Shown here one piece after another: positions 25,258 through 30,862 of a DNA stretch of 41,719 nucleotides (within the stretch, counting starts at the first letter, position 1; every line of letters begins with the position of its first letter). Source of the DNA: an uncultured Saprospiraceae bacterium (GTDB lineage: Bacteria; Bacteroidota; Bacteroidia; Chitinophagales; Saprospiraceae); contig CALLVG010000063.1 in NCBI GenBank assembly GCA_938010715.1, forward strand, positions 1 through 41,719. Direction: 5' to 3'. The notes under the pieces are model-generated. The model did no database searches and was not told the DNA's origin. It saw only the letters and a list, made by a program, of their open reading frames with translations. The position numbers were made by a program, and so were the translations under genes.

Positions 25258-28140
25258 TTACTTTTTAACAAAAAGGTGGGTAGCTGATTTTTTTTCGTTT
25301 TTAAAATTCATGAAATATATTCCTGACGGGTAATTATGTATTTCAACACTTGATTTTATTCGATCATTTCCATAAACCATAACTATTTTTTTCTCCAATA
25401 CGCTGCCTGCTGCATTATAAATAGTTACGATTAATTCTCCATCCATTCCTTCTAAGTCAAAATTTACAACGCTTTCCACTGGATTTGGGTACAAAGATAT
25501 ATGATATTTTTCTCCAATGTCAAGTGTACTTGAAGATTTGCAACTATCTACTGGTACAATTATTTGATTAGAAAAGACAGGATTCGACGTGGGACACTGA
25601 ACAGAGGAAGTCATAAAACATTGAATCACATCTCCATCTTCCAAATCAGATGCTTCATAAAAAGCAGTAGTAGTTGGTAATAATACATTGTTTTTAGACC
25701 ATTCAAAAGTAGGAGATGTTCCTTCGTGCACCAAAGATGATTCGAATCGCACCAATTCTCCTTCACAAACAATCGTATCTGGTCCTTCAAGTTGAATCAT
25801 TGGACTCAAAAAGGGAACAGAGGTTATATCTACAGTCGCAACTTGCGTATCTTCAATTACACATTTAACTTCTGAGATCGCTCGGCAAGTCACCTCCCCT
25901 ATACCGAAAATTCCGCTTACAATCACACTATCTTCAATCGCTCCATTAATTGGATTTCCATTTAATGACCACATATATTTTGGTGTATTGCCGCCATTTA
26001 CATGAGTTGCTTTTACCATTACTTCCGCACCTTCACAAACTGTGCTTGGTGATGAAAGTGATATGGAAAACTCTACTCGCTCCTCTACATTCAAAGTTAC
26101 AGTCGAACTCTCAATTGTTCCTACAGTGTTAGTCACTGCGCAAGTGTAGTTACCTACATTTTGAAGGCTCACCGAGCTTATTTGATAAACACTTTGAGTT
26201 GCGCCTATTATTGGACTTCCATCTTTTTTCCATTGATAACTCATCGCCTCATTACTTGAGGCAACTATATCAAAAGTTACAATTTCATTTTCACAAGCAT
26301 CTTTAGATTGTGGCTGCTCCGTTATAACAGGTGGCATTGCATTATTCCCTTGAAATTCATACGCACCAAGATCTACACGTCCATTTACTACTCGTGGATT
26401 ACTATCTAAGTCAACCCCTCCTATTGGATTCATCGGATTTCCTTGCTCAATAACAGATGCTCCTTCTTTAAGCCTATAATTACCAGAAAGCGTATCTACA
26501 AAATATAGTTCTTGACTAAAAATCAATCCATCGCCACAATTAATATTTGACGATGAATGATCTGTCAATTCGTCGCAACGATCAAGGTCAAACGAGCAAT
26601 ATTCTACGGTAGGAAAACCATATATAATTCGAAAAACTCTGCCTGTAGGTGCGTAATTATCGTAGAATATACAGTTGGAAATTACTGGATTACTTTGACC
26701 ATTTTCATCATTTGCATTACAATAAATCGCCCCTCCTACTTGTGCTCTATTCCCAACAAAAGTGCTATTGGTAATATTTGGATTACACTGTCCTCGATCC
26801 GAACCAAGATTATAAATCGCTCCAGCAGAAAATCCTCTGTTTTTTACAAAAAGACAATTATTAATATCTGGATTACAATGTCCAGCATTTCCAATATTGT
26901 AAAATACTGCACCAAAAGCAGTAGCTATATTTTGCTTAAATTCACAATTTGAAAAACGGGGTACGCAGGTTCCACTCGAACCGTTATTGAGAATTGCTCC
27001 TCCTGAGTCAGTAGAACGATTATTCTCAAAATTGCACCTTTCAAAACTTGCTTGACAAAACCCATTTGAGGAACCTAAATTATAAATCGCTCCTCCATCT
27101 TTTAACGAATGATTTTCAAAGAAATCGCAATCAAAAAACTTTGGACTGGTCTCCCCACTAAAGCTTCCATCAGAATAAACTGCCCCTCCTTCGTCCGCTT
27201 CATTTCTAATAAATACCGTTTTTTTAAAAATTGGATTGCTATGGCCATTATTTCCAAAATTAAAAACAGCCCCTCCATTCAGGTGAGCATTATTTGATTC
27301 AAAGCGACAGTCTTCGATCAATGGGTTTGAAATACCGCTTGTCCCTCCAGAATTCACCATTGCTCCTCCATGCTCATCGAGCGCCTTATTTCCTTTAAAT
27401 TCACATGATTTAAATACAGGATCGCAAAGCCCTTCAAAAACAGCATTGGCATAAAAGCCACCACCTGAATTTTTAGCTGTATTGTTGATAAATTTTACAT
27501 TTTCGAAAAGCGGAGAGGCATTCCCTTTAAAACTCCCATCTGAGTAAACTGCTCCCCCATACCCAAAAGCGTAGTTGTTAGTAAAAATACAATTACGAAT
27601 TACAGGGTGAGAAATGAATCCTTGAAGCTGACCATTATTATAAAAACCACCTCCACTATTATGTCTATCTCCCAGTGCAGCATTGTCAAAGTCTGCATTT
27701 CCATCTTGAATGGTAAAACCGTCTATTAACGTTTGATTGGATACGCCTTCGGTCAGTAATATTGTGTAGGAATTATTCGCTAACGTATTATCATTATCGA
27801 TATCACCGCTCAAAATTGTTAGATTTTGAGTTGCAACACGTTGATCAGATTGTGTTTCTGTCCCTTTAAAGCCTCCTAATAATTTAACACCATCTTTAAC
27901 AATAAAGGCTGTATTTCTTTGTGGTTCTCCACAGTTAGAGCAAAAAGTAGGTTTATAAATTCCTTCTGCTACCCATATTTCTACACCAAAGTAAGACGCT
28001 TGAAGGGCAACTTGCAGATCACCTGTCGCTTGCTGCCAAGAACTACCATCACCATTCCCATTTTGTTTAACAAAAATCGTTTGGCAAAAAAGTGTAGAAA
28101 TAGAAAAAAGAGCAATTATTAAAGTTGAAAAATATTTCAT
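25258..28140 (-). CDS. Secreted beta-helix and Ig-domain protein with type A T9SS sorting domain
   Basis: A 960-residue secreted protein. Signal peptide MKYFSTLIIALFSISTLFC; then a parallel beta-helix at about residues 25-570 made of ~10 Pmp-like turns with NNxAxxxGGAxYN patterns and Cys ladders (CxFxxN); then Ig-like domains (about 595-870: QPQSKDACENEIVTFDI, SYQWKKDGSPI, VGNYTCAVTNTVGT, with two more after it); and a C-terminal type A sorting domain (SLYPNPVESVVNFD, IYNAAGSVL, YPSGIYFM, LFVKK). The ATG at 28140 is preferred to a TTG seven codons upstream because it begins the signal peptide. Such proteins are exported by T9SS and attached to the surface; many beta-helix members act on or bind polysaccharide, but no catalytic residues can be named here. 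Confidence 0.92.
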   Translation of the reverse strand: MKYFSTLIIALFSISTLFCQTIFVKQNGNGDGSSWQQATGDLQVALQASYFGVEIWVAEGIYKPTFCSNCGEPQRNTAFIVKDGVKLLGGFKGTETQSDQRVATQNLTILSGDIDNDNTLANNSYTILLTEGVSNQTLIDGFTIQDGNADFDNAALGDRHNSGGGFYNNGQLQGFISHPVIRNCIFTNNYAFGYGGAVYSDGSFKGNASPLFENVKFINNTAKNSGGGFYANAVFEGLCDPVFKSCEFKGNKALDEHGGAMVNSGGTSGISNPLIEDCRFESNNAHLNGGAVFNFGNNGHSNPIFKKTVFIRNEADEGGAVYSDGSFSGETSPKFFDCDFFENHSLKDGGAIYNLGSSNGFCQASFERCNFENNRSTDSGGAILNNGSSGTCVPRFSNCEFKQNIATAFGAVFYNIGNAGHCNPDINNCLFVKNRGFSAGAIYNLGSDRGQCNPNITNSTFVGNRAQVGGAIYCNANDENGQSNPVISNCIFYDNYAPTGRVFRIIYGFPTVEYCSFDLDRCDELTDHSSSNINCGDGLIFSQELYFVDTLSGNYRLKEGASVIEQGNPMNPIGGVDLDSNPRVVNGRVDLGAYEFQGNNAMPPVITEQPQSKDACENEIVTFDIVASSNEAMSYQWKKDGSPIIGATQSVYQISSVSLQNVGNYTCAVTNTVGTIESSTVTLNVEERVEFSISLSSPSTVCEGAEVMVKATHVNGGNTPKYMWSLNGNPINGAIEDSVIVSGIFGIGEVTCRAISEVKCVIEDTQVATVDITSVPFLSPMIQLEGPDTIVCEGELVRFESSLVHEGTSPTFEWSKNNVLLPTTTAFYEASDLEDGDVIQCFMTSSVQCPTSNPVFSNQIIVPVDSCKSSSTLDIGEKYHISLYPNPVESVVNFDLEGMDGELIVTIYNAAGSVLEKKIVMVYGNDRIKSSVEIHNYPSGIYFMNFKNEKKSATHLFVKK

Positions 28141-28333
28141 TAAAGATAAAAATATGTTCAAAAAAAGGGCTTAAATCTCAACTTACTGAAAAAAATCAGG
28201 GCAGGTTTTAGTAAAAAGAAGAGATTTTTATAAATCAAAGGGACTACGAAGATAAGCCTTTTTTAATTCTATTTTGACGCAAATGATATAAATTACTGTC
28301 TTTCAGGGATATATACAGGTTGTTAAAACAGAA

Positions 28334-28365
28334 AAAGGGCGCAAGAATAGATTCTTACGCCCTTT
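28334..28365 (-). terminator. Second minus-strand terminator
   Basis: AAAGGGCG (28334-28341) pairs with CGCCCTTT (28358-28365), and AAGAAT (28343-28348) with ATTCTT (28351-28356). On the minus strand the stem is followed by a short T run. There is no protein gene on that strand directly upstream, which supports a non-coding transcript ending here or at 28401. Confidence 0.8.
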
Positions 28366-28393
28366 AAATTATATTTAAGGATCTGATTTTTTT

Positions 28394-28570
28394 AAAAAAA
28401 GTGAGTATAAGACCAGCTCTACCCCCCAAATGAACTGGTCTCACTCACTGTCTCCGGTCACTTCTGACCTTCGACTTCTTTCATAAATATGCTTTCTAAG
28501 TTGGGGAAGCATACTTAAAGGATCTTTCGATCAAGTTTCTTTTAAGAACATCTAACTGTTCTTATTAACG
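28394..28570 (-). ncRNA. Putative structured small RNA of unknown family
   Basis: Read on the minus strand, about 165 bases contain a series of compact stems: AAGAACA/TGTTCTT (28544-28563), GATC closed by a GAAA tetraloop (28521-28532), TATGCTT/AAGCATA (28488-28513), GGTCA closed by GAAG (28456-28469), and a terminal hairpin (28401-28448) followed by T7. The terminal hairpin combines AGACCAG/CTGGTCT with an outer GTGAGT/ACTCAC helix. A terminator with no gene before it, plus tandem secondary structure, indicates an RNA gene. A 23-codon frame (starting MLPQLRKHIYERS) lies inside it, so a leader or small-protein message is an alternative. The 5' end is uncertain, and the RNA could start well upstream. 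Confidence 0.5.
28401..28448 (-). terminator. Strong minus-strand rho-independent terminator
   Basis: GTGAGT and AGACCAG (28401-28416) pair with CTGGTCT and ACTCAC (28435-28448), interrupted by a small bulge. On the minus strand the hairpin is followed directly by seven T (28400-28394). Confidence 0.85.
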
Positions 28571-28909
28571 GTTGGTGGGTATTAAGGGAATATAAATGAA
28601 TAAAGAAGGGAAAATAACACCTGGAGGAGAGGATGAATAGTGAAGCACTTCTTTTCTTTATATACTTTATTAATGTCGAAAACTGTGCCAATTGAATCTT
28701 ATAATAAAAACTATTATGTGAAGAATTCTTTTGGCTTAAAACGAGATAATCTTTATCGTCTCATTCAAATACAGAACAAAAATACAGGGATCATACACTT
28801 ATATTTTCCCAAAAATCATTTTTTTGTGACATTGAATACAACGCACAATCTATCCTAATTTTAATATGATACTTGATATTAAATAATAAATGCTTTTTTA
28901 AAACCGTGA

Positions 28910-28954
28910 TTGTCAGTCATTTTGTCAGCAATAATCCACTGGCATGTCCTTTGA
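28910..28954 (+). promoter_or_regulatory. Sigma-54-like promoter with paired TTGTCAG boxes upstream of htpG
   Basis: TGGCATGTCCTTTGA at 28940-28954 resembles the -24/-12 consensus TGGCAC-N5-TTGC: the GG is present, and the downstream half is TTTGA with GA in place of GC. Directly upstream, TTGTCAG occurs twice (28910-28916 and 28922-28928), 12 bp apart, roughly one helical turn. The htpG ATG follows 36 bases after the -12-like box. No TAnnTTTG box is seen in this leader. Confidence 0.45.
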
Positions 28955-28990
28955 AAATAACGGGAGAATGTATTTATTAACAAAACCTAT

Positions 28991-30862
28991 ATGAATATGC
29001 AAAAGGGAAACATTTCAGTACAAACGGAAAATATCTTTCCCATTATTAAGAAATTTCTGTACGCAGACCAGGAAATATTCTTAAGAGAACTTATCGCCAA
29101 TGCAATTGACGCTACTTCTAAATTGAAATTATTATCAAATAGCGGTGAATTAAAAAAAGATACTGGCGATCTTACTTTAGAAATCATTCTTGATGAGGAG
29201 GCAAAAACCCTAACGATAAGAGATAAAGGAATCGGGATGAATGAAGAGGAGGTGCAAAAGTACCTCAATCAAATTGCTTTTTCGAGTGCCAGCGAGTGGC
29301 TTGAAAAATATAAAGACGATGCAAGTATCATCGGTCATTTTGGTTTAGGATTCTATTCTGCCTTTATGGTTGCCGATAAGGTGGAAGTAAACACCAAATC
29401 ATGGAAACCAAAATCTCAGCCTGTTCAATGGGTGTGTACTGGTTCTCCTGAGTATGAAATCAACGAAATCAAGAAAAAAAGTAGAGGTACAGACATCGTT
29501 CTTCATATTGGGGAGGAAGGAAAAGAGTTTTTGAGCAAACATAGACTTGAGGAGCTTTTGATGAAGTACTGCCGATTCTTACCTATTCCTATCAAATTTG
29601 GAACGAGAACGGAGACAGAGGAAGTTGGCGAGGGTGATAAAAAAGAAACCATCAAAAAGGAAGTTGATAATATCGTCAACAATCCAACACCAGCATGGAA
29701 GAAGAATCCAACCGAATTATCAGAGGAAGATTATAATGCTTTTTACAAAGAGTTGTATCCTTATAGTTCAGATCCTTTGTTTCATATTCATTTGAATATT
29801 GATTTTCCTTTTAACCTGACGGGTATTTTGTATTTCCCTCAACTGAATAATTCATTCGAGGTTCAGAAAAACAAAATTCAATTGTACTCCAACCAAGTTT
29901 GGGTGACGGATGATGTAAAAGAAATCGTTCCAGAATGGCTGACATTATTGCATGGAATCATTGATTCGCCTGACATTCCTTTAAATGTCTCCAGAAGTTC
30001 TTTGCAAAGTGACAGCAACGTGCGCAAGATCACTGGCTACATTACTAAGAAAGTAGCAGATAAGCTACACGACCTTTTCAAAAAAGATAGAAAAGAGTAT
30101 GAATCGAAGTGGAGAAGTTTGGGCGTGTTCGTGAAGTACGGATTTATGTCTGATGAGAAATTCGCAGAAAAATCGAATAAGTTCTTATTACTTGAAAATG
30201 TAGAGAATGAATTCTTCTTACTCGACGACTACGTTGAAAAGGTAAAAGGAACGCAAAAGAACAAATTTGACAAGGTCGTCATTCTGTACACCAATAATAA
30301 GGATGCGCAAGACCTATATATTACAACCGCAAAAGAAGAAGGCTACGATGTCGTTTTGCTTGACAATGTAATTGACAATCATTTTATTCAGCAGTTAGAG
30401 TATAAACGTCAAGACATTACTTTCAAAAGAATTGATGCTGATACAGTTGACAACTTGATCGAAACAGATGAGAAGAAAGAGTCAGTTCTGAGTGAGAAAG
30501 AATCTGAAACGGTGAAAGACCTTTTCGGAACATTGACTAAAGAGAAAGGAAATGTAACAATCGAGATCAAACCACTTTCGCCGACGGCGCCACCGGTGCA
30601 AATCACCAAACCAGAATTTATGCGTCGCATGAAGGAGATGCAATCCATGAATGGGATGAATCTCGGTGATATGCCTGACAGCTACAACTTGATCGTTAAC
30701 GGCAATCATCCGCTTGTCGCGAAAAAGCTACTAAGTGCAAAAGGTGAGAAGCAATCTGAGTTGGCGGAATATTTCTACAACTTAGCTTTGTTGAATCAAG
30801 GCATGTTGCAAGGAAAGGGCTTGACTGAGTTTATCAACAAGTCTTTGGACTTGATTAAATAA
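28991..30862 (+). CDS. htpG: Molecular chaperone HtpG (Hsp90)
   Basis: A cytosolic ATP-dependent chaperone that acts as a homodimer on late folding intermediates. The GHKL ATPase domain shows RELIANAIDAT (the Mg-coordinating Asn/Asp helix), DKGIGM and GHFGLGFYSAFMVADKV within the first ~125 residues; the middle domain holds the catalytic-loop arginine region (LNVSRSSLQ); the C-terminal dimerisation domain is complete. It is 623 residues long, nearly the same as the E. coli protein. The gene stands alone, with its own upstream control region and a terminator directly after it, as expected for a heat-shock gene. Confidence 0.97.
   Translation: MNMQKGNISVQTENIFPIIKKFLYADQEIFLRELIANAIDATSKLKLLSNSGELKKDTGDLTLEIILDEEAKTLTIRDKGIGMNEEEVQKYLNQIAFSSASEWLEKYKDDASIIGHFGLGFYSAFMVADKVEVNTKSWKPKSQPVQWVCTGSPEYEINEIKKKSRGTDIVLHIGEEGKEFLSKHRLEELLMKYCRFLPIPIKFGTRTETEEVGEGDKKETIKKEVDNIVNNPTPAWKKNPTELSEEDYNAFYKELYPYSSDPLFHIHLNIDFPFNLTGILYFPQLNNSFEVQKNKIQLYSNQVWVTDDVKEIVPEWLTLLHGIIDSPDIPLNVSRSSLQSDSNVRKITGYITKKVADKLHDLFKKDRKEYESKWRSLGVFVKYGFMSDEKFAEKSNKFLLLENVENEFFLLDDYVEKVKGTQKNKFDKVVILYTNNKDAQDLYITTAKEEGYDVVLLDNVIDNHFIQQLEYKRQDITFKRIDADTVDNLIETDEKKESVLSEKESETVKDLFGTLTKEKGNVTIEIKPLSPTAPPVQITKPEFMRRMKEMQSMNGMNLGDMPDSYNLIVNGNHPLVAKKLLSAKGEKQSELAEYFYNLALLNQGMLQGKGLTEFINKSLDLIK

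Follow-up and report, generated by a model that had tools for sequence, protein, structure and literature searches.

The locus and its predicted transcript

The window analysed here, a 41,719-nucleotide contig from an uncultured Saprospiraceae bacterium, carries htpG, the gene for HSP90, at 28991-30862 on the plus strand. Head-to-head with htpG, on the minus strand, is an intergenic element that a first-pass annotation had put forward as a candidate small RNA at 28394-28570; the next gene beyond it (25258-28161) lies on the same minus strand, 237 nt from the hairpin described below. The strong minus-strand structure claimed there is well beyond what shuffled sequences attain: the segment 28386-28600 has a minimum free energy of -58.7 kcal/mol (z -4.1) with 0 of 200 shuffles equally stable, and the longer span 28326-28664 of the same strand folds with a z of -5.2. 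The stem-loops themselves are there as described, in the number of five rather than four. On the minus strand they are predicted at 28564-28543, at 28532-28521 with a GAAA loop, and at 28516-28485, followed by a small hairpin at 28475-28450 with a GAAG loop (hairpin 1, of the type GGUCA-GAAG-UGACC) and by a long hairpin at 28450-28398 (hairpin 2), which matches the covariance models R1/R2 with 75 bits. Hairpin 2 displays a 12-nt G-rich loop, AUUUGGGGGGUA, in which the invariant run of six G occupies 28422-28427, and a run of seven T (28400-28394) forms its 3' flank.

The three 5' stem-loops of the window are not kept even within the same genus, and among 60 related genomes searched at the DNA level the 3' part, unlike the 5' hairpins, proved to be kept across other genera. 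The conserved unit is just the last two hairpins, the small hairpin and the G-loop hairpin. The small one has a counterpart in nearly all units; its stem letters differ between units while pairing is retained, and its mean minimum free energy is -9.8 kcal/mol, compared to -4.7 kcal/mol for shuffled sequences (113 units).

Two terminators had been proposed for this strand. The seven T of the first are present, and they are the 3' flank of a conserved hairpin rather than part of a strong terminator. A terminator scan calls a single site in this segment, 28365-28334 on the minus strand (14 pairs, a 4-nt loop and a T-rich tail), and not hairpin 2 with its T run; in the close relatives G001 and G005 that T run is interrupted. 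The second of the two proposed sites is thus the conserved terminator, with counterparts in relatives G001, G003, G002, G005 and G033; across loci, terminator-like sites were found in 26 of 65, against 0.23 in shuffles. Upstream, a sigma54-type -24/-12 promoter, TGGCACAGTTTTCGAC, is predicted at 28690-28675 on the minus strand. The boundaries first suggested are therefore too narrow, as the RNA would reach from this promoter to the terminator end at 28334. With the start set 12-13 nt after the -12 G and the end at the terminator, the minus-strand transcript probably spans about 28664-28330, some 335 nt rather than 177.

Conservation, distribution and genomic setting

Covariation in hairpin 2 was assessed in an alignment of sequences from 97 distinct relatives, in which standard pairs make up 94.8% of cells; shifting the partner by 1-3 columns as a control lowers pairing to 30-53%. 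The compensatory substitutions whose absence from relatives had been named beforehand as the refutation are present: double changes occur at 16 of the 18 base pairs, and 233 double-change cells were observed compared to 52±12 in shuffled alignments, in an alignment that was fitted to the covariance model and is hence biased towards it. The hand-inspected seed alone already has double changes at 9 of 18 pairs. Some seed rows of the alignment A2 were hand-trimmed by 1-2 bases; the later alignment A4 consists of untouched matches. The stems of hairpin 2 vary while the loop stays constant, as a near-invariant Y-GGGGGG-UA in which the six G are found in 113 of 117 copies, the base before them is U or C, and UA follows in about 110.

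The distribution of the element was addressed across a broad sample with R1, a covariance model built on the long hairpin. R1 matches at least 78 of 199 sampled Saprospiraceae genomes, in 50 of 112 genera. All 21 matches among 248 genomes of the order fall in Saprospiraceae, and there is no match outside this family among the genomes sampled from the class (n = 247) and the phylum (n = 345). When 84,980 named species were scanned with a pattern, 54 contigs were returned, all of them titled as Saprospiraceae, Saprospirales, Bacteroidetes/Bacteroidota or Bacteroidia MAGs. No copy was seen in about half of the Saprospiraceae genomes; a second model, run with filters off, found a divergent G6-loop version in 5 of 28 htpG loci of match-free genomes, and by our estimate perhaps half of Saprospiraceae have the RNA.

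Nearly every carrier genome has a single locus with one to about five hairpins (up to four at the R1 threshold), several genomes having two to four copies spaced about 100-200 bp apart, and the tandem arrays often alternate hairpins with C-rich stretches. In genome G021, two contigs (L038 and L039) both terminate within the hairpin array; the array breaks assemblies, so that the copy number of at least four is an underestimate. At the other extreme are reduced versions (L120, L123 and L142) made up of the promoter, about 65 nt and then a G-loop hairpin with its own T run. From these comparisons, the G-loop hairpin is the part never lost, even where all else is gone.

The nearest upstream gene is a divergent htpG in 56 of 65 loci, with a small same-strand ORF in between in a few. 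The same arrangement in the window bears out the earlier remark that no minus-strand protein gene feeds the terminators: none lies upstream, and htpG departs in the other direction at 28991. Downstream the setting differs between genera, with genes that read from sequence as M28-like peptidase-type, sugar isomerase-like and others; 43 of the 64 loci have this gene in convergent orientation. The RNA is thus not a leader in general, and the idea that it is the leader of the downstream gene was rejected. Promoter, terminator and mostly convergent downstream genes together support an independent transcript.

Between htpG and the RNA, about 20 RNA-bearing genomes encode an unnamed conserved ORF of about 80 amino acids (L158:1714-1962, L165:7136-7396 and L194:7005-7253, among others). 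Distant relatives of it also occur in some genomes in which the RNA was not detected, and it is missing from the window's own genome and from many RNA-bearing ones. It has no Pfam or NCBIfam match and is predicted to adopt a beta-beta-beta-beta-alpha order; for its AlphaFold model (pLDDT 82), Foldseek gave no match better than E 0.066, and the best VIA-align match, a PH domain with Z 6.9, does not qualify as a usable relative. The strand order led us to consider a PUR-like fold, which was absent among the matches listed, and the ORF was set aside as a nucleic-acid-binding partner since the model had no clear fold match.

Promoters and possible C-rich partners

Most relatives have a counterpart of the box at 28690-28675 ahead of their first hairpin, and the consensus between htpG and that hairpin is, in most loci, TGGCAY-R-N4-TTGSA. 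At least 10 of 12 consensus positions are matched in 32 of 64 loci, as against 1.8 after dinucleotide shuffling and 6 on the reverse strand; the copy in the window matches 9 of 12. A second sigma54-type box, TGGCATGTCCTTTGAA, lies on the plus strand at 28940-28955, upstream of htpG, with an operator-like sequence, GTCATTTTGTCAG, nearby at 28916-28928 on the same strand. Such a box precedes htpG in 49 of 56 regions, where shuffles give 0.28, and in 17 of the 25 htpG loci from the other set, often with an operator-like palindrome, [CG]TCATTTTGNCAG, about 12 nt upstream of it. This arrangement is conserved across Saprospiraceae, and in the genomes searched the combination of the box with [CG]TCATTTTGNCAG was found only at htpG. 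The palindrome TGTCA-N3-TGACA was considered as an activator site common to the RNA and htpG, and rejected; it lies mainly near htpG and is not shared.

The sigma factor itself is widespread, rpoN being present in 77 of 80 Saprospiraceae genomes. The genome bin of the window (G000) has two full-length rpoN genes, on contigs C47 and C169, where most relatives have one; the second is either a true paralog or bin contamination. In Bacteroidota, sigma54 promoters are enriched at chaperone genes, HSP90 (COG0326) is enriched for them in Bacteroidia, and GroES and GrpE are cited as sigma54-dependent (sigma54 regulon comparison, PMC12316311). The TGGCAY-N5-TTG box that marks this chaperone regulon stands before both the RNA and htpG, which look like neighbours in one sigma54 chaperone regulon.

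C-rich boxes such as CCCCCC or CCTCCC lie 5' of 48 of 102 hairpins, compared to 7.8% of windows drawn at random from these loci, and on the antisense strand the count is 8 of 102, a sixfold enrichment on the RNA strand. In the window, such a box, CCTCTCCTCC, is found in the 5' part at 28623-28632 on the minus strand, and is a possible partner for the G loop in the light of this enrichment in relatives; in addition, and in the window only, an apical loop at 28501-28506 of the same strand presents CCCCAA, complementary to UUGGGG of the G loop. At the window locus the loop duplex score is not above shuffles, and duplexes between C box and loop beat dinucleotide shuffles in just 20% of units. Since the minimal versions do without a C box, self-pairing of this kind is not universal.

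Partners elsewhere in the genome were sought in 12 genomes with the perfect-complement nonamer TACCCCCCA, which occurs slightly more often than a reversed-pattern control; as a search for conserved target sites this was weakly above control, with mixed contexts. In the window's own genus, the sites inspected are mostly in or antisense to ORFs and mostly outside 5' UTRs. One 5' UTR of the window's own genome (L276, on contig C127 of G000, minus strand) contains several C-rich tracts, including UACCCCCCAA. The UACCCCCCAA site lies 30 nt before the gene for a large secreted DUF11-like surface protein, and UACCUCC stands at the matching place in one relative only; this 5' UTR is a possible target of the G6 loop, and we regard it as a lead, not as evidence.

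Possible function and relation to known RNAs

The evidence for conservation, structure, synteny and promoter is good; transcription, induction by protein-folding stress, a pairing partner, a regulatory outcome and the loop as the effector are what we infer. Our preferred reading, to which we give a probability of about one half, is that of a trans-acting small RNA of the sigma54-driven chaperone regulon, whose G6 loops dock by base pairing onto C-rich RNA. The RNA gene, head-to-head with htpG, would be read from a sigma54-type promoter of its own, and its product would probably be synthesised alongside the chaperone once stress acts through RpoN and an enhancer-binding activator. The functional element would be the long hairpin with its Y-GGGGGG-UA loop, with the small hairpin on its 5' side and, in roughly one unit out of two, C-rich single strands as well. 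Docking could take place on mRNAs with UACCYCC-like sites and on C boxes of the RNA itself, where the G loop would be stored or shielded, and duplication of tandem units would tune the number of docking sites. A bolder version, put forward tentatively, holds that this is a Saprospiraceae-confined family whose invariant GGGGGGUA loops, on tandem hairpins, make up a multivalent branch of the HSP90 stress regulon under sigma54 control and act through G6-C6 docking within or between molecules, possibly assembling RNAs.

The same loop would suit a protein. Tandem G6 loops might hold an RNA-binding protein off its mRNA targets, in the way that CsrB/RsmZ sequester CsrA and CrcZ sequesters Hfq; a protein partner fits the invariant loop as well as pairing does, and the near-invariance extending to the flanking UA, the display on a long stem, the varying tandem number, the sigma54-type control and the small conserved ORF beside the RNA in some genomes are all in keeping with titration. 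That ORF, however, is absent from the window genome and many other carriers, no clear fold match was obtained for its model, and a single hairpin, as found in many genomes, is weak for titration. Given the C-rich partners in the same molecules and the common single-hairpin versions, we consider pairing with RNA somewhat likelier, and titration a possible but less favoured alternative.

Other roles are unlikely. With two G-U pairs included, GGGGGGU could form seven contiguous pairs with the tail ACCUCCU of 16S rRNA, so the loop might bind this anti-Shine-Dalgarno sequence and modulate initiation under stress, and the constancy of the loop would then follow from that of its rRNA target; yet GGAGGU would pair better and the G run is unbroken in nearly all 117 copies, and Bacteroidota ribosomes occlude this tail, making such a role improbable. 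Lower still do we place a cis-acting 5' leader or attenuator of the minus-strand gene at 25258-28161, already largely refuted: the same-strand neighbour of the window would suit it, but the gene at this place changes from genus to genus, is mostly convergent, and is separated from the RNA by the terminator. Equally improbable is an element acting as DNA, whether a mobile repeat or an inverted repeat bound by a protein. The long inverted repeat and the tandem copies at the G021 contig ends would agree with this, but there is one locus per genome with fixed synteny and fixed promoter orientation, and the stems contain G-U pairs and carry a strand-specific, asymmetric loop.

If the docking reading is right, the RNA suggests how small RNA pairing may operate in a phylum whose translation relies little on Shine-Dalgarno sites, and in which regulatory RNA is little explored beyond Bacteroides. 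Saprospiraceae are abundant in activated sludge and in the sea, and the family is a testable one: its ends and its inducer (RpoN/chaperone stress) are predicted, its place in the genome is fixed, and a single loop is invariant. At the sequence level, it connects sigma54 with both HSP90 and an RNA.

The first-pass annotation had recognised no known RNA family here, and Rfam 15 agrees: the window has no family at gathering score, nine relative loci gave just two tRNAs, and a permissive search returned sub-threshold matches alone, such as BTnc060 with 23.8 bits where the gathering score is 228.9. Together with the compensatory changes at 16 of 18 pairs, this upholds the proposal of a new small RNA as a prediction from sequence. 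With a predicted promoter and terminator of its own, a structure under selection and no role as leader of the downstream gene, it has the features of a standalone small RNA. By Rfam it is a new RNA family; as a kind, a stress small RNA with repeated identical loops, its analogues are CrcZ, CsrB and LhrC. FopS and other Bacteroides small RNAs (the BTnc series) are likewise from Bacteroidota, and Rfam gave no match to them above threshold. CrcZ and CrcY of Pseudomonas, which depend on sigma54 and CbrB and sequester Hfq, are standalone RNAs that share with it repeated binding motifs and a sigma54-type promoter, present here at the sequence level; CrcZ has repeated CA motifs (AANAANAA) for Hfq-Crc, whereas the Saprospiraceae RNA has long hairpins with G6 loops, is adjacent to htpG and belongs to Bacteroidota. 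CsrB/RsmZ similarly have several hairpins with one invariant loop motif in varying copy number, but the motif there is GGA, in place of which Y-GGGGGG-UA is found in nearly all 117 copies, and the promoter here is of sigma54 type. LhrC of Listeria and the staphylococcal small RNAs with C-rich loops are also stress-linked tandem units with a constant mRNA-pairing loop; their UCCC- or CU-rich loops pair with G-rich Shine-Dalgarno sites, whereas here the loops are G-rich and the C-rich parts lie elsewhere, a mirror image. If pairing is indeed what the loop does, the RNA would be a reversed-polarity counterpart of these C-rich-loop RNAs of Firmicutes, and what is new is this reversed G-rich loop, the linkage of sigma54 and htpG, and the restriction to Saprospiraceae.
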